Shown: positions 48,291-62,566 of the stretch, one piece after another
How the letters are laid out: each line of letters begins with the position of its first letter
Position numbering within the stretch: the first letter of the stretch is position 1
Origin: Acholeplasmatales bacterium
Lineage (GTDB): Bacteria > Bacillota_I > Bacilli_A > Acholeplasmatales > Anaeroplasmataceae
Reading direction: 5' to 3'
Assembly: GCA_017542485.1 (NCBI GenBank)
Contig: JAFXXC010000019.1
Coordinates: 1 to 64,000, forward strand
Length of the DNA stretch: 64,000 nucleotides
Translations under genes and position numbers: made by a program
The notes under the pieces: model-generated
The model's database searches: none
What the model was told of the DNA's origin: nothing
What the model saw: only the letters and a program-made list of their open reading frames with translations

Positions 48291-49514
48291 ATGCTAATTA
48301 AAAGAATGCAATATTTAGAAAATATTAGAAGATTTTATGAATCTAATTTAATTAAAGTATTAACAGGTATAAGAAGATGTGGAAAAAGTGTAATACTTGA
48401 GCAGATAAGAAATGAATTAATTAAAGATTATAACGCAAAGTTAGATCATATAATCTCAATAAATTTTGAAGATGTAAAATATTCTAATATCAAGGATTAT
48501 AAAAAATTAAACGAATATATAGTAAAACTAATAATTGATGATAAAAAATACTATATATTTTTAGATGAGATTCAACATGTAAAACAATTTGAAAAGACTC
48601 TTGCTTCACTTAAGGCTACTAAAAATGTTTCTATATTTGTGACAGGTAGTAACAGTAAACTTTTATCTGGAAGACTTGCAACTTTATTAGTTGGAAGATG
48701 TAAGGAATTTAAGATTATGCCTTTTACTTATAATGAATATATTAATTATTTCAGAGAGAATAAGATGAATCTTCCAGAAAAACCACTTCAAAACTATATA
48801 AGATATGGTGGAATGCCTCAGCGTTTAGATTATTATTTAGAAGAAGATATTAAAGACTATTTAAAATCAATTTATTATGGAATAATTGATAAAGATATTT
48901 GTAGTGGACAATCTAAAATTAATAAAGAAACATTTATCACAATTTCTAAATATATTATCACTAATTCTTCTAAAGAATTTTCTGCCCAAAATATAGTTGA
49001 TTATTATAATCAAAATAATCCTGATACAATATATAGAGAAACTGTATATAGGATATTAGATAAACTTGAGCAAGCTTGTTTAATTTCAAGAGTTAAACGT
49101 TATGATATTGCCACAAAAAGAACATTAAAACAAGTTGAAAAACAATTCGTAATTGATAATGGTTTTGTATTGGCTTGTAATGATTCTAATAAAGTTTTTG
49201 TGTCGCATTCATTAGAAAATTTAGTGTATAATGAATTGATATATAGAGGATATGAGGTTAAAATTGGAAAAACTTATAAAGGCGAAATTGATTTTGTTGC
49301 AATGAAAGATGGGAAAAAGTGTTTCATTCAAGTTGCTTATTTATTATCAAGCGATGATGTGATTGAAAGAGAGTTTGGAGCTTTTAAATCGGTAAGAGAT
49401 GCTTCCCCAAAGTTTGTATTAAGTCTAGATGAATTTGATATGTCTCAAGATGGAATTACTCATATGAATATTGAGGATTGGTTAACAAACAAAGTTGATT
49501 TATCACTATCTTAA
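48291..49514 (+). CDS. AAA ATPase with DUF4143 C-terminal (nuclease-like) domain
   Basis: 407 residues. Walker A is GIRRCGKS (about residues 24-31), Walker B FLDEIQHV and the sensor VTGSNSKLLSG. The C-terminal DUF4143 part has ENLVYNELIYRGYEVKIG, KGEIDFVA and KCFIQVAYLL, an archaeal-ATPase/PD-(D/E)XK-like layout (E...D...Q-V). The role of this abundant family is not settled; mobile or defence functions have been proposed. It has its own TATAAT box and GTAGGTGAAC site. Both flanks carry the same inverted motif (see 48206 and 49517), which suggests a self-contained cassette. Confidence 0.9.
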   Translation: MLIKRMQYLENIRRFYESNLIKVLTGIRRCGKSVILEQIRNELIKDYNAKLDHIISINFEDVKYSNIKDYKKLNEYIVKLIIDDKKYYIFLDEIQHVKQFEKTLASLKATKNVSIFVTGSNSKLLSGRLATLLVGRCKEFKIMPFTYNEYINYFRENKMNLPEKPLQNYIRYGGMPQRLDYYLEEDIKDYLKSIYYGIIDKDICSGQSKINKETFITISKYIITNSSKEFSAQNIVDYYNQNNPDTIYRETVYRILDKLEQACLISRVKRYDIATKRTLKQVEKQFVIDNGFVLACNDSNKVFVSHSLENLVYNELIYRGYEVKIGKTYKGEIDFVAMKDGKKCFIQVAYLLSSDDVIEREFGAFKSVRDASPKFVLSLDEFDMSQDGITHMNIEDWLTNKVDLSLS

Positions 49515-49850: not shown

Positions 49851-50791
49851 ATGAATAACAAAAAGAGATTAGAGTTTTGGACTGAATTAGATAAGCCAAC
49901 TAATGAAATAGATTTGATGAAATTTGATGAGTATATTCCCAAACAGTTATTTAGATATAGAAAGGTTGACTCCAATAGCTTATCAGCATTATTAAATAAT
50001 AGATTATATTTTTCTACATCTAATTATTATGATGACCATTTGATACTTTGTTTTGTATTGATAAAACAAAATTAAGAAATGAAATTATTGCTTTATTGAA
50101 TGATCCGAATGCTCAAGTAGAATTTAATCGTTTTCAAGAAATGAATAATATAAAATTCAATTTTGATATAGAATATGCATTAAAGAATAAAGAAAAAATA
50201 TTTGAGTGGATTGATAACACTATAGAAAATATACAATATACTTTTAAAAATGAAATATATTCTATATGTTTTAGTGAAAGTGATTTAAATCAAGATTTAT
50301 GGTTGAAATATGCAAATAATTATACTGGATTTGTGATTGAATATGATGTTGAAAGCATTAGGAATTCCTATAATAATACATATGCATCTGATGATAAATT
50401 AATAGATAATTGTAGAAATTATTTATATCCTATTGTTTATTATAATAAACCTTTCTATGCTAATGAACTTTTCAAATGCATTATATATAGGCTTTCAAAA
50501 ATGGAACATTTCATTAAAGATTGGAACAGATTTTTAATTGATAGAAGACGTGTTTGTTTAGTAAAAGATAGGTATCATTCAAAAGATAAAGAGTGGAGAG
50601 TTTTTGTTGATAATAAAACGTCATATATTAATGTTGTTCCAAAAGCTGTAATTATGGGTTTGAAAATATGTAATTCAGATAAGACTTTATTATATGAAAT
50701 ATGCCAAAAAAACAAAATCGATTTGTATCAAACCTATATATCTGGTAATTATAAGTTAAAGAAAAAATGCTTAATTAAATTTAATAAATAA
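49851..50791 (+). pseudogene. DUF2971 gene broken by a one-base frameshift
   Basis: The first frame (from ATG 49851) encodes the DUF2971 start, QLFRYRKVDSNSLSALLNNRLYFSTSNYYDDH, described here in parts: RYRKVD, LLNNRLYFS and NYYDD. At about 50040 the family continues with FDTLFCID in the +2 frame and runs open to 50791 with ICFSESDLNQDLWLKYA and WRVFVD. The expected DD-P/H-FD motif is restored by adding one T in CATTTGAT. Total length would be about 313 residues, normal for the family. The gene is probably inactive, unless the shift is a sequencing error. Confidence 0.85.
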
Positions 50792-52034: not shown

Positions 52035-52679
52035 TCAAAAGCATTATATGATAATCTATATCCATCAAGAATTATTGTTGGATGTCCAAAAGATGATGCA
52101 AGAGTATTAGAATGTGCTAATAAGTTTGCTAAGCTTTTACAAGAAGGTGCAATTAAAGAAGATATAACAACTTTAATTATGGAGCCAACTGAAGCTGAAG
52201 CAGTTAAGTTATTTGCTAATACATATTTAGCACTTCGAGTAGCTTATTTTAATGAATTAGATACCTATGCTGAATCAAAGAATTTAAATACTAAATCTAT
52301 TATTGATGGTGTATGCTTAGATCCAAGAATTGGTACACATTATAACAACCCATCATTTGGTTATGGTGGTTATTGTTTACCAAAGGATACAAAGCAATTA
52401 AAAGCAAACTTTCAAAATGTACCAGAAAATCTTATTTCTGCAATAGTAGAATCAAATAGAACGAGAAAAGATTTTATTGCAGAAGAAATATTAAAAGCGG
52501 CTGGATTCTTTGATGATAATAAGAAGATTACTGTAGGTATATATTGATTAACTATGAAATCTAATAGTGATAACTTTAGACAATCAGCAATACAAGGAGT
52601 CATTAAAAGAATTAGAGCTGAAGGCGCTAATGTTGTAATTTATGAGCCAACATTAAATGATGTTATAAATAAAGTATAA
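52035..52679 (+). pseudogene. Decayed UDP-glucose 6-dehydrogenase gene (3' part, frameshifted)
   Basis: From 52035 the frame reads [19 protein letters not shown], then [17 protein letters not shown] and the catalytic-cysteine region [14 protein letters not shown], all typical of Ugd. At about 52543 one extra T creates a TGA; the next frame continues [22 protein letters not shown] and ends at 52679. The N-terminal NAD-binding part is absent. This gene is dead. Confidence 0.88.
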
Positions 52680-52692
52680 ACAAGAGTTTTAT

Positions 52693-52722
52693 TTGGAAGG
52701 AATTAATTTATATTTTGATAAT
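52693..52722 (+). promoter_or_regulatory. Possible promoter of the ATPase-HNH genes
   Basis: TTGGAA (52693-52698), an 18-base spacer and GATAAT (52717-52722), 55 bases before the ATPase start. Confidence 0.4.
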
Positions 52723-52777
52723 ATTGGATTAGAATAAGATAATGAAATAATGAAATTTATTTTAGAAAGAGGAAATA

Positions 52778-54271
52778 ATGAACTTTTATATTAATGAAAA
52801 GCATAATTATGATAATGGTTTATACGTTTTTTTAAAGTCGGATAATTGGAACGATTATGGATATATTACAATGTTCAGTGCATATCTTTATAAATCATCC
52901 AAAATGATTGAAGAACTTGGAAACATCAAAATAGCTTTTTTGGGAGAAAAAAATGGTATCCAATCTGAAAAAAATAATGTAAACCATTATATTGCAAAAA
53001 AATTCTCCAAATTAGATAATAATTTTTGCTCTTTATGGCAATCTCTTGAATCTTATAAAAAGGTGAAGAATTCCGAAAAGGAATATGGGATAAATATTTT
53101 CAGTTCACTTAATGATATAGTAGTTCAAATTGACAAATTAAATGAATTACTTCAAAACGATATGGTTTCAACTTCATTATTTAGATTTATATCACCTTTT
53201 GAATGTGAAAATCAATTTTATAGAGTGTATATTGGTAAAGAACCTCTTGATAACTATGAATATTCTTTTATCTATGCTGATAAAGATAAGAATTCTGATA
53301 ACACTCTTGTTTTTGAAGTTAATGTTGAATCATGCCCTCCAACAAATATACACGTATTAATCGGCTCTAATGGGTGTGGCAAAACTTATACTATTAAAGA
53401 AATAGTAACGCAATTTATACGTGCTGATATTGCTGATAAAAAGTTTGAATCCATATTTTTGATATCATTTAATCCATTTGATGATTATAGCACATTTTAT
53501 AATGTTAAAAATAGTGATATAAGTCATATAAAAAAAGATTTTTATTATATAGGAGCTAGGAATATTAACGATTTAAATAAAAATAAAGATGTTAATGAAT
53601 TGACCCAGCAATTTATTGAGAACTATTATGCATGTTGTAAAAACGAAAAAAAGATACTTGAATGGAATAGTTTTATTAATGATATGTCTAATACCTTTCC
53701 AAATGCTAAATATATTAATGAGCTAATTATACTAAATGATTTTTATAAAAAATCTTCAAACATCAGTACAATATTTAATTTATTAAGTGCAGGTTATAAA
53801 GAAGTTGTTTCAATAGTATGCGGAACAATTGCAACTATGGTTGAAAAAAGCTTAATAATTATGGATGAACCTGAAAACCATTTGCATCCGCCTCTCTTAT
53901 CTATGTTGATTAGATGGTTATCAAATATTCTTGTAGAAAGAAATGCTTTTTCAATTATAGCCACTCATTCACCTATAATTTTGCAAGAAGTGCCTAAATC
54001 ATGTGTTTGGATTATTCAAAGATTTGGAAATGTGAGAAAAGTATATAGACCTACTATAGAAACATTTGGAACAAACTTGTCAACACTTACATATGAGGTA
54101 TTTAAATATGAAATAGAGAATTCTGGTTTTAATACACTTTTAAAGAAAGTTGCAAATGAATCTCAAAATTATGAAGATGCATTAAGAAAATTTGGTGGAT
54201 GTTTAGGAGATGAAGCTAAAAGCAGATTACGTCTACTATGTTATAAAGAGGATAAAAATGAGAAAAATTAA
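52778..54271 (+). CDS. Septu-like (PtuA-type) AAA/ABC ATPase
   Basis: 497 residues. Walker A is IGSNGCGKT (near residue 196), late for such a protein, after about 190 residues of unknown N-terminal sequence. A signature-like LLSAGYKEV and Walker B LIIMDEPENHLHPP are followed by the H-loop TIATHSP-type segment IIATHSPIILQEVP. This is the SMC/ABC-type layout of PtuA and related defence ATPases. The next gene encodes an HNH nuclease and overlaps by 14 bases, the PtuA-PtuB order of Septu. An AGAGGAAAT site precedes the ATG. Confidence 0.82.
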   Translation: MNFYINEKHNYDNGLYVFLKSDNWNDYGYITMFSAYLYKSSKMIEELGNIKIAFLGEKNGIQSEKNNVNHYIAKKFSKLDNNFCSLWQSLESYKKVKNSEKEYGINIFSSLNDIVVQIDKLNELLQNDMVSTSLFRFISPFECENQFYRVYIGKEPLDNYEYSFIYADKDKNSDNTLVFEVNVESCPPTNIHVLIGSNGCGKTYTIKEIVTQFIRADIADKKFESIFLISFNPFDDYSTFYNVKNSDISHIKKDFYYIGARNINDLNKNKDVNELTQQFIENYYACCKNEKKILEWNSFINDMSNTFPNAKYINELIILNDFYKKSSNISTIFNLLSAGYKEVVSIVCGTIATMVEKSLIIMDEPENHLHPPLLSMLIRWLSNILVERNAFSIIATHSPIILQEVPKSCVWIIQRFGNVRKVYRPTIETFGTNLSTLTYEVFKYEIENSGFNTLLKKVANESQNYEDALRKFGGCLGDEAKSRLRLLCYKEDKNEKN

Positions 54272-55091
54272 AAACCAATTGGATTCTTCTAGAATACAGG
54301 AAATATTTGATACTTGTAATACTTTTATTAATGAACCTATGAAGTCTATTATATTTAAAAATAAAAATATAATTTTACAAGAATCTAAAAATTATAATTT
54401 ATATGTACCTAAAATGCTGGATAAATATCCTCTTACAAATTTCGCTAAAGCTGAAATCGATGAAATAAAGAAGTTATATACTTATAAGTTTTCTCCCAAA
54501 AATTCGGAAGGTAGAATCTATTATGATTTGTTGTTGTCTAATGCTGGATTAAGTTGCCCCATCTGTGGTTGTGCAACAGCAAATACTTTAGATCATTTTA
54601 TTCCTAAAACAAAATATCCACAACTATGTATAACGCCAAATAATTTGATTCCTGTCTGTTCGAATTGTAATGAAAAAAAACAAATTAAGTATTCTAATAA
54701 TTATTTGGAGGTTCCTTTTCATCCGTATTTTGAAGAGATGAATGAAAAATGGTTAGAATGTAAAATAGTTTTTGATGTATCAAAAATATATAAATATATA
54801 TTTTATTGTGGCAATTTAACTTCAAAACTAGTTGATAAGTATAAAGTCCATTTAGATATTTATAAATTAAATGATACATTTCAAGGATACTGCAACAGCG
54901 AAATAGTGAGTAGTAACGATAGACATAGAAGATTACTTGACATAAGCAAGGAAGAGTTAATTGCGTTCATAAAAGAAACCGCCAAAGATAATGAAAAAGT
55001 TGATTGCAATGGATGGAAAGCGGCCCTTTATAGAGGATTAGAAAGACAAATTGATGATTATTGTATTTATTTGAAAAATCGATATAATTAG
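54258..55091 (+). CDS. Septu-like (PtuB-type) HNH endonuclease
   Basis: 277 residues from the ATG at 54258, with an AGAGGAT site inside the ATPase gene; a longer frame from 54210 is rejected. The HNH core holds CPICGC (about residue 99), LDHFIPKTKYP (the DH pair), TPNNLIPVCSNCNEKK (N and the second zinc CxxC). Flanking regions are helical. The ATPase-HNH pair matches Septu, in which the ATPase restrains or guides the nuclease until phage infection. Whether this subtype behaves likewise is inferred. Confidence 0.85.
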   Translation: MRKIKNQLDSSRIQEIFDTCNTFINEPMKSIIFKNKNIILQESKNYNLYVPKMLDKYPLTNFAKAEIDEIKKLYTYKFSPKNSEGRIYYDLLLSNAGLSCPICGCATANTLDHFIPKTKYPQLCITPNNLIPVCSNCNEKKQIKYSNNYLEVPFHPYFEEMNEKWLECKIVFDVSKIYKYIFYCGNLTSKLVDKYKVHLDIYKLNDTFQGYCNSEIVSSNDRHRRLLDISKEELIAFIKETAKDNEKVDCNGWKAALYRGLERQIDDYCIYLKNRYN

Positions 55092-55162
55092 CAGATCAAT
55101 ATAGAAATTATATGGCTAGTAATATAATTTTTATAATAGAGATAATCAAGAGGTGACAAATT

Positions 55163-56299
55163 ATGAAGGAAATATCACTTGTAGATGGAAAGACTGTTCA
55201 ATTTAATATTTCTAAAGAATTAAAGGATATAAGAGTTCTAGGAACTGGTGGGACAGGTGATACACATCTTTTTTACGATGAAATAGCAGAAAAGTATTTC
55301 GCAATAAAAAAATTTGTTCCAAAAGGAAGTAATGACTCTGAAGATTGTTATAAAAGATTTGTAGAAGAAATTAAAATTTTAATGGATATTTCTCACAAAA
55401 ATATAGTCCGTATTTACAATTATTATTTGTATCCTAAAAACAAAACAGGGTATATACAAATGGAATATGTGGAAGGTAAAAGTATTGATAAATTTGTTCC
55501 TTCAAAGAATAAGAGTTTGGATGATTTATTTGTTGATACGATTGATGCTTTCTGTTATCTTGAAAGCAAAGGAATCCTTCATAGGGACATTAGACCAAGT
55601 AATTTTTTGATAAATGAAGATGATGAATTAAAAATAATAGATTTTGGCTTTGGGAAAAAGTATGATACTGAAAATATTGATGAGAATAGTGTCTTATTGG
55701 ATTGGCCTGGTACTCAGAAACCTGAAGAAATAATTGTAGATAAAAAGTACGACGTTAGAACAGAGATTTATTATCTTGGTGTTTTATTTAAAAACATAAT
55801 TAATAATATAGATGGTTTTTCTTATGTAAGTATTCTTGAAAAAATGTGTTATGTTCAAACTTCATTAAGGTATCAAAGTTTTAATGAGATAAAAGATGAC
55901 TTAAGCAAATCCTTATTTTCAAAAATCAATTTTACTGAAAATGATAAGACAATATATAAAAATTTTTCTAGTCAATTGTCGGATTCTATTACAAGATTTA
56001 TTGATAATAGAGTTTTTGAAAATGATATAAATTTGATAATGAAGAATCTTGAAAAGGTTATAGAATCTAGTTCGTTAGAAGACATTGTCCAGGGTAATAA
56101 TAAAGTTATTAGTTGTTTTGTTAAATCTAATTATAGCTATATAAAAGAAAATATAATATTTTTTACTAATTTATTAGATTTTTACAAAATGATGCTGAAT
56201 ATGTCTAATTCAAAAAAAGAAATAATAATCAAAAATATTCAATCTAGACTATCTATTAAGGAAATTGAATATAGATATGATGATGAGCTACCTTTTTAA
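55163..56299 (+). CDS. Ser/Thr protein kinase with helical C-terminal domain
   Basis: 378 residues. The kinase domain (about 20-245) has a glycine loop LGTGGTGDTH, the lysine in YFAIKKF, HRDIRPSNFLI (catalytic Asp, with R for the usual K), IDFGFGKK (DFG) and PEEI for APE. These residues are all present, so it is probably active. The C-terminal 130 residues are helical and unrecognised, without membrane segments. It starts 71 bases after the HNH gene with an AAGAGGTGA site and no terminator between. It may be a third component of the ATPase-HNH set. Confidence 0.88.
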   Translation: MKEISLVDGKTVQFNISKELKDIRVLGTGGTGDTHLFYDEIAEKYFAIKKFVPKGSNDSEDCYKRFVEEIKILMDISHKNIVRIYNYYLYPKNKTGYIQMEYVEGKSIDKFVPSKNKSLDDLFVDTIDAFCYLESKGILHRDIRPSNFLINEDDELKIIDFGFGKKYDTENIDENSVLLDWPGTQKPEEIIVDKKYDVRTEIYYLGVLFKNIINNIDGFSYVSILEKMCYVQTSLRYQSFNEIKDDLSKSLFSKINFTENDKTIYKNFSSQLSDSITRFIDNRVFENDINLIMKNLEKVIESSSLEDIVQGNNKVISCFVKSNYSYIKENIIFFTNLLDFYKMMLNMSNSKKEIIIKNIQSRLSIKEIEYRYDDELPF

Positions 56300-56416
56300 T
56301 AAATAGTTTTATTAGGTGCATTATAATAAGGTATTATGCAAGAATTAATTAAATATTTAAGTGCAAATAAAAATTATAAATTGAATTTTTAAAATGATAA
56401 TAGATTACGAAAACTT

Positions 56417-56563
56417 AAAAATGGCATTGATAGTGGATGTAAGGTAGATGCTCCTGGTGGATTTATAGAATGGTTTAGTAAAAGAAATGATGTATATGCA
56501 TATCTTATGCCAGGTAAAAGAATAGATATAGGTAATTTAGAAGATTATTATAGAATTAAATAG
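56417..56563 (+). pseudogene. 3' fragment of a sugar nucleotidyltransferase gene, copy 2
   Basis: Forty-eight codons and a stop, almost the same DNA as 50820-50962; differences include SGGF to PGGF and the final codons. The ending YLMPGKRIDIGNLEDYYRIK is that of a GalU/RfbA-like enzyme. The two copies bracket the segment holding the Nmad3 and ugd remnants, the ATPase-HNH pair and the kinase. Confidence 0.8.
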
Positions 56564-56729
56564 AAGAATTATAACCTATTTTATCACTATGATTATCTAA
56601 ATCATCTTTTAATAAATAATCATATGAATGAGGGATAGAGACGAGTAATTTAGTTTATTTGAAGTTGATAGCCCGACCCTTGTGGTCATTAAATTATGTA
56701 TTTATAAATAATATCTACAAGATAAATGA

Positions 56730-57026
56730 GATGACTATGTATTTGCAACAGGTGAAAGTCATACTGTTAGAGAATTAATAGAAGCAGCATTTAAAGTAAT
56801 AGGTATTAGAATAACATGGAAAGGTGAAGGAATTGATACTAAAGGTATTAACGATGTAACTGGAAATGTATTAGTTGAAATTGACCCTAACCTATATCGT
56901 GTAAACGATAATAAATATTTAAAAGGTGATTCAACAAAAGCTAAAGAAACACTTGGTTGGGAACCTAAACATAAATTTGTAGATATAGTAGAAAAGATGG
57001 TTAGAACTGAGATTACTAATAAATAG
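56730..57026 (+). pseudogene. 3' remnant of GDP-mannose 4,6-dehydratase (gmd)
   Basis: The frame reads DDYVFATGESHTVRELIEAAF, then VLVEIDPNLYRVNDNKYLKGD and AKETLGWEPKHKFVDIVEKM, ending at a TAG. This is the C-terminal 98 residues of Gmd. The NAD-binding and catalytic part is missing. The gmd gene makes the GDP-4-keto-6-deoxymannose precursor of GDP-fucose, so a former polysaccharide operon is implied. The stretch 56564-56729 has no gene. Confidence 0.85.
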
Positions 57027-57052
57027 TATTTAAATTAAATTATAATAAAAAA

Positions 57053-57300: not shown

Positions 57301-58284
57301 ATGAAAAAAAAGTATAAATTTCCATTTCCTGATATTCCTGATATGCCCGAAGAAATAATTAATGCCATCGATAGTGGTAAATTATTATTGTTTATTGGCG
57401 CTGGCATATCTAAATTAATTGGATATCCATTATGGTTTGAGTTGGGTAAAAGACTTGTAAATAAAGCGGTTGAAGAGAAAATACTATCAAATTCAGAAAA
57501 AGAAGTATTACTTTCTAGTGGATTTACGCCAATGCAAATTGTAACTATTATTTCTAAAAGATTTGATTCTGCCGGAAAGAGAGGAATTGAATATATAGTA
57601 GAAGAACTAAGCAATAACAAAGATATAAATTTGTCAATAGCTAAGCAAATTGCAAAATATTTATCTGCTTATAATGCTACAATTGTTACGACAAATGCTG
57701 ATGAAACTCTTGAAAACACAAAGCCACTTAATGATAGAAAAGTAATAAAATCATTTGTAGATTATGACGATGAGAATAATCGTGATTATTCATTTATTCA
57801 TCTCCATGGCAGTATTAGTGAACCTGAGAATATGGTATTTACAAGTGAAGATTATGCCAAGGCATATTCTGTTGAACGTATATTTGGCATAAAATTAAAA
57901 AAATTAATGGATTATAAATGGACAATTCTTTTTGTTGGATATGGAGTTAGTGAATTTGAATTAATAAGATATTTTTTAAATGATGACGATTCAAAGGATA
58001 GACGACTTTTTATGTTAGATGGCTATTTGTATAAAGATTTAATAAAATATGAATTTGATAAAGAATACTTTAAATCACTCGGAATATATTTGTTACCTTA
58101 TTCGAGAGAAAAAGATAATTATAATGCATTAATTAATGTTCTAAAAAAATGGGATAAAATTGTTGAAACAAAAACATTTGCTAGTACATCAAGGAAGGTG
58201 AGTATTATAAATAAAATTGTTTCAAATATGCCAACTGACGAAAATGTACAAATTATAGAAAAGTTGGTGAATAATAATGAATGA
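57301..58284 (+). CDS. SIR2-family NADase-like protein
   Basis: 327 residues with the SIR2 core near the N terminus: LLFIGAGISKLIGYPLW (NAD-binding GAGxS), TTNADETLE (TTNxD, usually TTNYD), FIHLHGSISEP with the catalytic histidine, and ILFVGYGVSEFEL. This SIR2_2-type pattern is shared with defence sirtuins that deplete NAD during infection. A GGAGGTGG site precedes the ATG. It overlaps the following 839-residue gene by eight bases, so the two are likely made together. Confidence 0.9.
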   Translation: MKKKYKFPFPDIPDMPEEIINAIDSGKLLLFIGAGISKLIGYPLWFELGKRLVNKAVEEKILSNSEKEVLLSSGFTPMQIVTIISKRFDSAGKRGIEYIVEELSNNKDINLSIAKQIAKYLSAYNATIVTTNADETLENTKPLNDRKVIKSFVDYDDENNRDYSFIHLHGSISEPENMVFTSEDYAKAYSVERIFGIKLKKLMDYKWTILFVGYGVSEFELIRYFLNDDDSKDRRLFMLDGYLYKDLIKYEFDKEYFKSLGIYLLPYSREKDNYNALINVLKKWDKIVETKTFASTSRKVSIINKIVSNMPTDENVQIIEKLVNNNE

Positions 58285-60796
58285 TTTAAAGGAGATTATT
58301 AATAATTTATGTAAATCGGAATTTCTTCCCGATTGGATTCTAAAACTAAAGGAAAATGAAAGACTATTTTCTCCAAAAATTAATATAAAACCATGTGTTA
58401 AGATCGATGATAATCATGTAAGGTCTAGTGTTTGGGATGGCTTGCTTCTTATTGATTGTTATTGTAGAAGAAATATCGAAAATTCTAATGTTGATAATTT
58501 TATAGTATCCCTAATAAATGAATCTATTAAATTATATGAAAGCGATAAAGAAGAAGCTCCATATTTAAAATTGAACAGTAGTAATATTATTTTACAATTA
58601 TTATTAGAAATATTACTATCAAAACCTAAATTTGTTAATGAAACTAAATTTGTTTCTTTTGTTGAAATATACCTTAATGGTGTCCTATCTTGGCCATTCT
58701 CTTTAGTTTACGATTTATATATGAATAGAAATGTGTTAGTTAATGTTAATCCAAATGTCATTTTTTTAGTATATAAAACAATAGTTGAGAAGAGAAATAA
58801 TAAAAATGATTATGATAAATATTTGATTGTGCCAGAGTTAATTAGTTTGAATCCGTTAGAATATTATAATTATTCAAAAGAAGTAATATTGTCTTTTAAC
58901 AATAAATTTTTTTATGATATGTCATCATTTAATGGGTACAAATCACATTCACATCAGTACGAAATTACATATTTTGAATGGCTTAAAATTGCTTCAAAAA
59001 AAATTGATACGCAAGTTTTAAAAAAAGATATATTATTTTTCATAAATAGTAGTCAAGATTTATTCAAAAAAATAGGATTGTGTTTATTGAATATCAGTTT
59101 CGATAGATTTGTCTCACTATTTTTTGAAAACTTTAGTCTTTTTGTAAATGATGAGTCTTTTTATGCGGATTTAAGGATTATATTCAATGAAAAATTAAGT
59201 TCTGATTTAATCAAAACCAATTTAAAATTGATTCAAAAAACATTAAATGAAGCAACATTTGGTTGTGAAAAAGATTCTACTATTATGATTTTAAAAAATC
59301 ATTTATATGGTATTTTAAACAAAAAAATAAATATTTTTCCTTATATGAGTGAAAAAACTGAGCAAATAGATTTTGTAAATAATTTTAACAAGAAGATTTA
59401 TTCTGTTAATTATGATTCACAAGAAGAAGAAAACAGAATATATGATAAAATTAAAGATATGGATATTAATGATGCCATAGATGTTTTTCACAAAATGATA
59501 GGAGGTTCTTATTATTTTGATGATGTAATTCATAATTCGTTTAGAAGATATATTCATGAAAATTTTTATAACGATTTAGATAATTATATTGAAAAATTTG
59601 ATTCAGGATTATTAATTCATTTAATTCACTATTATTCTAATGATTCTAAAAATTTATATATATTAATACGTTTATTAAAAAAGTCTGTTTTTTTAATAAG
59701 TACAAATGAATTTAACGCAGCAACTTCGTCTGTATTATTTGCTTTAAAACAAATATATAATCAAATAACAATTGATGAATTGACAGAAATAGTTAATAAT
59801 ATTGATTATAATATTCTATCTGTTGATGAGTATGAGTATTATGATAGGATTGTAACAATATGTATAAATGAAAATATACATTCGTATTTAGATATCGTTA
59901 TTTATTTATGCGAATGCAAAAGTATCAGTGTGATAAAGTTAGAAGAAATCATCACGTGTTTTATAAAAAAATATGATTGTAAGAAACTAAAATCCATTAT
60001 AGCATCTATATACCCAAAATTGTTGTATTTGGACTTTGAATACGGAATTTCATTGGAAAATTACATTTTTGATAATATACATGAAAACCATAATTTGTCA
60101 TATCCGTTAATATCCATTTCTAACTATCATTCCATTGTATTACTCGATAGAATATCGTCTCAAGATAAGTTTATTGAATATATTAAGATGAATGAAAGCG
60201 ATAATGATATTCAAATGAGTAAGCAAGTAATACTATCATGGTATTTAAAAAGTTATATTTTTGATGATAAATATGATAATATAATTGATCTATTATTTGA
60301 ATGTAAAAAATATGATGTTATCCTTGAAAATATGAGAACAGTTAATTATTGGATTCAAAAACATTATCTTAAGAAAGATAACATAAATAGATATTACAAA
60401 TATCTAGAAAATTTTGACAAGTCGTTTACTTTCTTTGAAAAAGATGAATATGAATCTGATCAATTTATCCGAGAAATTGCAAATTCAATGGTTTTGTTAA
60501 ATGAATCTAAAGATTTTTTATGGGGATTAATTTTTAAAATGTTTAGGAATTTTAATCATTATTTTTCTGATGAATGTGTAGAATTAATAAAAAAGTATAA
60601 AGATAATGAAATACAAAATATATCAAAATTACTAGATTTATATTTTGATAAATATGATCGATATATGTCATTTGAAGATACTGTTGTTGAGGTTTTCAAT
60701 ATTATAAAACCAGACAAAAACTATAAAGATAAAATTAAAAAATGGCAAGTTGCATTAACGAAAAAGAATATTGATATAAAAAGTAAAATTTGTTAA
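58277..60796 (+). CDS. Large protein of unknown function coupled to SIR2
   Basis: 839 residues, mostly helical, with a repetitive look of paired helices (possible alpha-solenoid) rich in D, N, I and Y. I see no Walker motif, zinc site, nuclease motif or membrane helix. Its start lies inside the SIR2 gene and a GTTGGTGAAT site stands upstream. It may be the sensor or scaffold that controls the SIR2 enzyme; a DUF4020-type relationship is worth testing but is not visible to me. It ends 100 bases before a terminator. Confidence 0.85.
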   Translation: MNDLKEIINNLCKSEFLPDWILKLKENERLFSPKINIKPCVKIDDNHVRSSVWDGLLLIDCYCRRNIENSNVDNFIVSLINESIKLYESDKEEAPYLKLNSSNIILQLLLEILLSKPKFVNETKFVSFVEIYLNGVLSWPFSLVYDLYMNRNVLVNVNPNVIFLVYKTIVEKRNNKNDYDKYLIVPELISLNPLEYYNYSKEVILSFNNKFFYDMSSFNGYKSHSHQYEITYFEWLKIASKKIDTQVLKKDILFFINSSQDLFKKIGLCLLNISFDRFVSLFFENFSLFVNDESFYADLRIIFNEKLSSDLIKTNLKLIQKTLNEATFGCEKDSTIMILKNHLYGILNKKINIFPYMSEKTEQIDFVNNFNKKIYSVNYDSQEEENRIYDKIKDMDINDAIDVFHKMIGGSYYFDDVIHNSFRRYIHENFYNDLDNYIEKFDSGLLIHLIHYYSNDSKNLYILIRLLKKSVFLISTNEFNAATSSVLFALKQIYNQITIDELTEIVNNIDYNILSVDEYEYYDRIVTICINENIHSYLDIVIYLCECKSISVIKLEEIITCFIKKYDCKKLKSIIASIYPKLLYLDFEYGISLENYIFDNIHENHNLSYPLISISNYHSIVLLDRISSQDKFIEYIKMNESDNDIQMSKQVILSWYLKSYIFDDKYDNIIDLLFECKKYDVILENMRTVNYWIQKHYLKKDNINRYYKYLENFDKSFTFFEKDEYESDQFIREIANSMVLLNESKDFLWGLIFKMFRNFNHYFSDECVELIKKYKDNEIQNISKLLDLYFDKYDRYMSFEDTVVEVFNIIKPDKNYKDKIKKWQVALTKKNIDIKSKIC

Positions 60797-61116: not shown

Positions 61117-61707
61117 ATGATTTTGAGTACGAATGTTATCTTAGATCAACTAAAGAATTATGTCAATCCTTACGGAAAGATGGGCCGCCTTGTGAAGGAA
61201 GGAAAACTTATCCCTCTAACGAAGGGATTGTACGAGAACAACGCAAATGTATCCGGAGTATATTTGGCCAATGCAATCTATGGACCATCCTATATTTCAT
61301 TCAATTATGCTTTGGCATATTATGGATTAATCCCGGAAGCAGTGTATGAGTTTACAAGTGCAACCACTGAAAAGAAAAAGAAGAAGTCGTTCAACAACCG
61401 TTTTGGGACCTTTTCTTATAGAGATGTACCTGTTGATGCGTACCCATATGGGGTCAACATCATTGAAGAAGGTGGTTATTCATTCATGATGGCCTCAAAA
61501 GAGAAGGCTCTTTGCGATAAGCTATACGAGCTTCCTCCGGTAAAAAACCTAAAGGAACTTGAAGAATTATTGTTCAATGACATGAGGATTGATGAAGTTG
61601 AATTTGATAACCTCAATAGAGAGGACATTTATTTTATCGCACCGAAATATCATGTCAATAATCTTAAGCACCTGGCAAATTACCTAAGGAGGAGACACCA
61701 TGAATAG
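61117..61707 (+). CDS. abiEi: Type IV antitoxin of the AbiEi family
   Basis: 196 residues. The N-terminal wing-helix part has TNVILDQLKNYVNPYGKMGRLVKEGKLIPLTKGLY (described in parts: DQL, KMGRLVKEGKL, LTKGLY) and the YISFNYALAYYGLIPEAVYEFTSAT region is typical of AbiEi. The C-terminal part has KALCDKLYELPPVKNL and LRRRHHE at the end. It represses its own promoter in characterised systems. It overlaps the toxin gene by eight bases. GC is higher than the neighbours (24 of 60 bases at 61681-61740, against 18 of 60 at 60001-60060). Confidence 0.9.
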   Translation: MILSTNVILDQLKNYVNPYGKMGRLVKEGKLIPLTKGLYENNANVSGVYLANAIYGPSYISFNYALAYYGLIPEAVYEFTSATTEKKKKKSFNNRFGTFSYRDVPVDAYPYGVNIIEEGGYSFMMASKEKALCDKLYELPPVKNLKELEELLFNDMRIDEVEFDNLNREDIYFIAPKYHVNNLKHLANYLRRRHHE

Positions 61708-62566
61708 CATAATCGACGAGATGTTGAAGAATTACCAAACGGAGACTTTGGACGAAAAGAAGAACGCCGTAAAGGAAATAATCCAGGAAGTCGTTCTATG
61801 TGGGCTTGCGAGGGCAAAGTTTTTTGAAAAGGCTGCATTTTACGGTGGAACAGCATTAAGAATTTTTTATGGTCTAGATAGGTTTAGCGAGGATTTGGAT
61901 TTCTCTCTTAAGAAACCAGATAAGAATTTTGACCTTTCCTCTTACTTCCCGATTCTAGAGAAAGAGGTTAGGGCGTTTGGCTTGAATCTGAAGGTTGAGG
62001 AAAAGCAAAAGATAGCGGATTCGAATGTCAAATCAGCTTTCTTAAAAGGAAACACTAAAGAGCATTTGCTTTTATTCTATACCAAAGAGGATTTTTCATC
62101 AGGAATCAATAGGGATGAGGTTTTAAGGATTAAATTCGAGGTAGATACTAATCCGCCTAGTGGGGCTAGATACGAATACAGGTATTCTCTTAAACCTGCT
62201 CCATATGAAGCGACGCTTTATGATTTGCCATCACTTTTCGCAGGGAAAGTGCATGCTGTCCTTTGTAGAGGCTGGAAGAATAGAATCAAGGGAAGAGACC
62301 TATATGATTATGTCTTCTATTTGCAAAGAGGTGCAGCTTTGAATATGGAGAACCTTAAGCAAAAGCTTATCCAATCAAACGCGTGGAAAGAGGAAGACGA
62401 ATTAACTCTGGATGAAGTAAAGAAAATGCTTTGCGAGCGATTCGACGGGATTGATTTCGAAAAAGCAAAAGATGATGTCAAAGATTTCATAAAAGATAAA
62501 GCGGCTTTGGACGTGTGGTCGATTGACTTCTTCAAAGCCATCACAAAAGAATTGAAAGAAAAATAG
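61700..62566 (+). CDS. abiEii: Type IV toxin, AbiEii nucleotidyltransferase
   Basis: 288 residues. The nucleotidyltransferase core is visible: AAFYGGTALRIFYGLDRFSEDLDFSLKKP (GGT...L and the S-E-D-L-D-F motif) near residue 50, followed by LRIKFEVDTNPP and PSLFAGKVHAVLCRGWKNRIKGRDLYDYVFYL, the conserved K/R-x-x-R-D-x-x-D region. AbiEii enzymes block growth by modifying tRNA ends or related targets. It is co-translated with AbiEi. A classical phage-defence type IV pair. Confidence 0.92.
   Translation: MNSIIDEMLKNYQTETLDEKKNAVKEIIQEVVLCGLARAKFFEKAAFYGGTALRIFYGLDRFSEDLDFSLKKPDKNFDLSSYFPILEKEVRAFGLNLKVEEKQKIADSNVKSAFLKGNTKEHLLLFYTKEDFSSGINRDEVLRIKFEVDTNPPSGARYEYRYSLKPAPYEATLYDLPSLFAGKVHAVLCRGWKNRIKGRDLYDYVFYLQRGAALNMENLKQKLIQSNAWKEEDELTLDEVKKMLCERFDGIDFEKAKDDVKDFIKDKAALDVWSIDFFKAITKELKEK

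Follow-up and report, generated by a model that had tools for sequence, protein, structure and literature searches.

A Septu-like ATPase-HNH pair beside a mobile Hanks-type kinase with an SSB-like C-terminal tip

The window, the whole 64,000-nucleotide stretch analysed here, carries an ATPase-HNH pair followed by a protein kinase from a family that recurs in mobile contexts and has a conserved SSB-like tip. The reading we favour, with moderate confidence, is that these are two independent units lying next to each other in a defence island, and that mimicry of the SSB C-terminal tip (SSB-Ct) would dock the mobile kinase onto SSB partners and so serve phage exclusion or defence. The features, in window coordinates, are these:

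52778..54271, forward strand: ATPase gene, PDC-M01A / PtuA-like / lambda Ea59-like, 497 aa (PADLOC PDLC04235 and tblastn to lambda ea59)
53360..53386, forward strand: Walker A IGSNGCGKT, residues 195-203 (core G-x-N-G-x-GKT invariant, alignment A1)
53864..53875, forward strand: Walker B / DEPE, residues 363-366 (invariant, A1)
53963..53974, forward strand: H-loop THSP, residues 396-399 (invariant, A1)
54258..55091, forward strand: HNH nuclease gene, PDC-M01B / lambda Ea31-like, 277 aa (PADLOC PDLC04251, E 2.3e-60; Pfam HNH, 1e-4)
54258..54271, forward strand: 14-base overlap of the ATPase and HNH genes (ORF coordinates)
54555..54680, forward strand: HNH motif CxxC...DH...N...CxxCN (C100, C103, D112, H113, N129, C134, C137 and N138 invariant, alignment A2)
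55092..55162, forward strand: 71-base spacer from HNH gene to kinase gene, with ribosome-binding site GAGGTG ahead of the kinase; terminator not found
55163..56299, forward strand: Hanks-type protein kinase gene, 378 aa (Pfam Pkinase, E 1.5e-32; family alignment A7, nine members)
55913..56263, forward strand: kinase C-terminal domain, residues 251-367, aligned in all nine members
56279..56296, forward strand: SSB-Ct-like tip DDELPF, the last six residues of the kinase (tip-pattern searches, A7)

Pfam, PADLOC and NCBIfam profile searches back the three gene assignments, and the ORF coordinates bear out the places, the 14-base overlap and the 71-base gap given in a preliminary description of this DNA. 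The HNH gene starts with the ATG at 54258. That description saw no terminator between the pair and the kinase, and we likewise found no terminator-like hairpin in 52500-56700. A scan around the three genes returned 36 promoter-like matches against 35.6 in shuffles, no more than expected, and is thus neutral on a separate kinase promoter. GC and GC3 are alike across the three genes, and no flanking repeats marking an insertion were found. A nucleotide-sugar dehydrogenase relic (52060-52660) lies on one flank and the relic of a dehydratase/epimerase C-terminus (56740-57030) on the other, and the block looks as if it had landed in a decayed polysaccharide cluster.

The same island holds further candidate defence genes, an AAA_14/DUF4143 protein (PDC-S01, 48291-49514) and a DUF2971 protein (PDC-S31, 50048-50791). 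At 57301-60796 a 327-aa SIR2 gene, which matches the N-terminal part of Dsr1 at 8e-56, overlaps an 839-aa gene that fits no family clearly; the two may represent Dsr1 divided between two genes. An AbiEi-AbiEii pair at 61117-62566 has a GC3 of 0.42, against about 0.17 in the surrounding genes, and was probably acquired recently.

The ATPase matches the PADLOC model PDC-M01A (PDLC04235) at E 1.2e-132 over residues 5-494 of 497, and one PADLOC PtuA1 model (PDLC00282) more weakly, at E 2.5e-111; the product of the adjoining HNH gene matches PDC-M01B (PDLC04251). The NCBIfam curated PtuA/PtuB (retron Ec78) cut-offs were not reached (38.8 of 500 bits for the ATPase, 13.2 of 150 for the HNH protein). 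In alignment A1, which compares ATPase motifs across nine relatives, the core of the Walker A and the THSP of the H-loop, both features noted before, prove invariant. Judged by these matches, the two genes are a genuine pair, PDC-M01, overlapping Septu and in the family of lambda Ea59-Ea31, and the earlier call of a Septu-like pair stands. Published surveys show that PDC-M01 and Septu calls overlap (PMC11811056), and tRNA-Tyr cleavage has been reported for one Septu (PMC13096335).

When phage records were searched by tblastn, lambda Ea59 matched at 33% identity over 96% of the ATPase, and in lambda, too, an HNH gene, ea31, comes next and overlaps ea59 (L009:2941-5405). This homology assigns lambda Ea59-Ea31 to the ATPase-HNH family of PDC-M01 / Septu-like pairs, which places it in a Septu-like defence family; the literature searched gave no assigned role for it.

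Scans for ATPase relatives yielded 160 loci. In all 147 of those whose sequence runs 900 nt or more past the ATPase, an HNH gene came next on the same strand, and no broadly recurring third gene was found among the loci surveyed, which makes the pair a two-gene unit. No other PDC-M01A turned up in 395 genomes sampled from the host's class, so the pair was probably acquired. The search space for the kinase or the pair was about 1,900 genomes plus a viral collection, whose scan picks up close relatives only.

The kinase retains a glycine loop, GxGGTG, at residues 27-32, K49, E69, HRD at 140-142, N147 and DFG at 160-162, all invariant in the nine family members except at inner glycine-loop positions (A7). 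The catalytic loop reads HRDIR in 9/9, where Ser/Thr kinases usually have HRDxK, so Ser/Thr specificity is not established for this Hanks-type kinase; the glycine loop, Lys, HRD and DFG named in the preliminary description are present. That description's remark that the C-terminal 130 residues are unusual was well founded: they have no Pfam match and form a domain found only in this kinase family. The SSB-like tip had been overlooked. No SSB or OB-fold match was found in the kinase by hmmscan, and its AlphaFold model, with a pLDDT of 43, is of too low quality for use. The best PADLOC matches, PD-T4-6 and mad6, do not reach beyond the kinase domain (residues 16-208 and 14-209).

A search of Clostridia-type genomes and viral contigs turned up eight full-length relatives, 34-47% identical to the window kinase. 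The nine form one clade, with support of 100/99 against other kinases, and each has the kinase domain, the C-terminal domain of about 130 residues and a Pro-Phe end. With the C-terminal domain alone as query, matches in Bacilli-type relatives stayed at chance level, and searches of plasmid and phage records with the kinase gave kinase-domain matches only, or none. The eight relatives lie in these contexts:

L205: IS-rich region
L206/L266: with a bSEFIR gene (PDLC03957, 5.5e-92) 67 bp upstream of the kinase
L270: in a phage, with terminase genes directly downstream of the kinase
L272: in a viral contig, 2.6 kb past Lamassu LmuA-LmuB
L273: in a podophage, with a head-tail adaptor gene on one side and ribonucleotide reductase genes on the other
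L275: contig end
L278/L280: near a phage integrase
L279/L281: in an island that also encodes Abi_alpha, a STAND-like NTPase and an HNH protein

Three of the eight are thus in viral contigs and one is beside a phage integrase. These positions, in phages, close to an integrase and within defence islands, point to phage exclusion or defence, or else to control of a mobile element. We propose that the role is probably phage exclusion or defence. That the kinase is instead a phage or mobile-element regulator, controlling lysogeny or induction in the manner of Pf KKP, seems unlikely but deserves weight, and would be compatible with docking of the tip. The members beside the integrase, beside the terminase and in the podophage fit such a regulator, as does the KKP precedent (PMC11341870). 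Against it, the kinase also occurs in defence islands, in the window and at L279/L281, where no prophage genes could be recognised close by.

The window kinase ends DDELPF, the host genome's main SSB ends DVADDDLPF, and the eight relatives end DDDLPF, EPDYPF, VDDLPF, DDDMPF, DDDIPF, DDELPF, DDDMPF and DDEIPF (A7). The Pro-Phe end is present in 9/9 and acidic residues followed by [LIM]PF in 8/9, the weak tip being the EPDYPF of L206, though the nine kinases are homologous and so are not independent draws for tip conservation. At 34-47% identity to the window kinase, Pro and Phe have outlasted most of the C-terminal domain, and the linker ahead of the tip varies in both length and sequence across the nine. 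In the host's own genome the pattern [DE][DE][DE]-x-PF-stop matches SSB and the kinase only; a reversed control pattern had zero matches in 60 genomes. Among 7,575 distinct ORFs of at least 80 aa, a [DE][DE][LIVM]PF end is limited to the kinases of this family, proteins of SSB type and two of NYN type, the last two having entered the set through the tip-pattern search itself; 0/28 of the other sampled Hanks kinases have it. These two NYN/PIN-type proteins (L245:1501-2319 and L250:1501-2349; 272 and 282 aa), from two same-genus genomes, end DDDDLPF.

In SSB partners a hydrophobic pocket receives the terminal Phe, a basic lip its carboxylate and a basic ridge the acidic residues; without the Phe, or with the Pro changed, binding is lost or weakened (PMC10164576). 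A point against the proposal is that a tip of this kind can be dispensable, as has been reported for DdrB (PMC3834827). As the invariant terminal Phe and penultimate Pro of the kinases are the determinants that SSB partners require, docking on these partners at single-stranded DNA seems the most likely working of the tip. The non-subscription literature searched contained no SSB-tipped kinase.

It is improbable that the tip only resembles SSB-Ct and serves another function, such as pseudosubstrate autoinhibition or a C-terminal recognition tag. In its favour, one member has diverged to EPDYPF yet keeps PF; against it stand the eight acidic tips, and the spread of forms, with DDDIPF in the proteobacterial-type phage member (L273), L, M and I forms in Firmicutes members, and L in the host's own SSB. 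We give still less credence to the kinase as a competitive decoy, its tip filling the SSB-Ct pockets and blocking partners while kinase activity is secondary. The invariant Phe and Pro, as binding determinants, speak for a decoy, but the equal invariance of the catalytic residues is an argument that catalysis matters, and a decoy with one tip per protein would be up against abundant tetrameric SSB.

The preliminary description had also grouped all three genes, with the kinase as a possible third component. Of 136 other pairs whose sequence continues 1.3 kb or more past the HNH gene, none has a kinase of this family, and 0/8 of the full-length kinase relatives have an ATPase-HNH neighbour within the sequence examined around each. 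A trio of ATPase, HNH protein and kinase is rejected by co-occurrence both ways: the search for the three genes in order, proposed with the grouping, failed to find them together elsewhere, and the kinase occurs without the pair in all eight relatives, an outcome that the preliminary description itself had named as refuting the grouping. On the comparisons made here, the kinase is an independent mobile family and not part of the ATPase-HNH pair. That it is a true third component, sensing infection or phosphorylating the ATPase or HNH protein, is scarcely credible: the shared strand, the short gap with no terminator found, the similar GC and GC3 and the member 67 bp downstream of bSEFIR speak for it, but not one of the other pairs has the kinase, the pair is absent from every relative, and three relatives are in viral contigs. 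The bSEFIR adjacency suggests that the kinase may have settled behind effectors more than once; it leaves room for opportunistic coupling to neighbouring effectors, and at this locus the kinase could be co-transcribed with the pair.

The only kinase matches near the surveyed pairs (L024, L033 and a weak one at L082) are unrelated to the window kinase. The L024 kinase lies on the opposite strand, 1.3 kb past the HNH gene, is without the family's C-terminal domain and ends ILEV. That Lachnospiraceae locus (L024:8443-11228) consists of a PDC-M01 pair and a convergent three-gene set with this other kinase.

We therefore return to two units. In the first, the PDC-M01 pair, the ABC/OLD-type ATPase would sense infection and control the HNH nuclease. 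The second is a mobile, active-looking Hanks-type kinase whose tip copies the SSB-Ct peptide and would dock into the SSB-Ct pockets of SSB partners, with RecG, PriA, RecO, RecQ, RecJ and DnaG as candidates. Docking would bring the kinase to replication forks and to single-stranded DNA that lies exposed; there it could phosphorylate fork proteins or phage replication proteins, and phosphorylation might block a competing or infecting phage. In E. coli, some twenty proteins of DNA replication and repair are organised through docking on SSB-Ct. We advance more tentatively, at slightly under even confidence, the wider idea that a phage- and island-borne kinase family, not described in the literature searched, hijacks the SSB hub by tip mimicry; during infection the kinase, delivered to the fork, would phosphorylate proteins of phage replication or of genome maintenance. 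If true, phages or defence islands would have a direct route for putting a signalling enzyme at the fork, and the SSB docking tag would predict where the kinase's substrates should be sought.

Compared with known systems, the pair is closest to the PADLOC candidate PDC-M01: both proteins match near full length, in the same order and with the overlap, and we found no difference. It shares with Septu (PtuA-PtuB, including the retron Ec78 effector) the ATPase and HNH operon and the PtuA1 match, but is far under the NCBIfam cut-offs, and its PDB matches are local only. The KKP kinase-kinase-phosphatase module is likewise a kinase system on mobile DNA, prophage-borne with an antiphage role, whereas here there is a single kinase and no phosphatase was seen. 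The anti-phage Hanks kinases PD-T4-6 and MADS mad6 share the kinase domain, while the C-terminal domain and SSB-like tip are unmatched by PADLOC models; Stk2 is another anti-phage Hanks kinase. The tip resembles SSB-Ct in its acidic residues followed by L/I/M-P-F at the very end, but is carried by a kinase without an OB-fold match. Phage lambda Ea59-Ea31 has the same ATPase gene and then overlapping HNH gene, on a temperate phage, whereas the pair described here is in a bacterial island.
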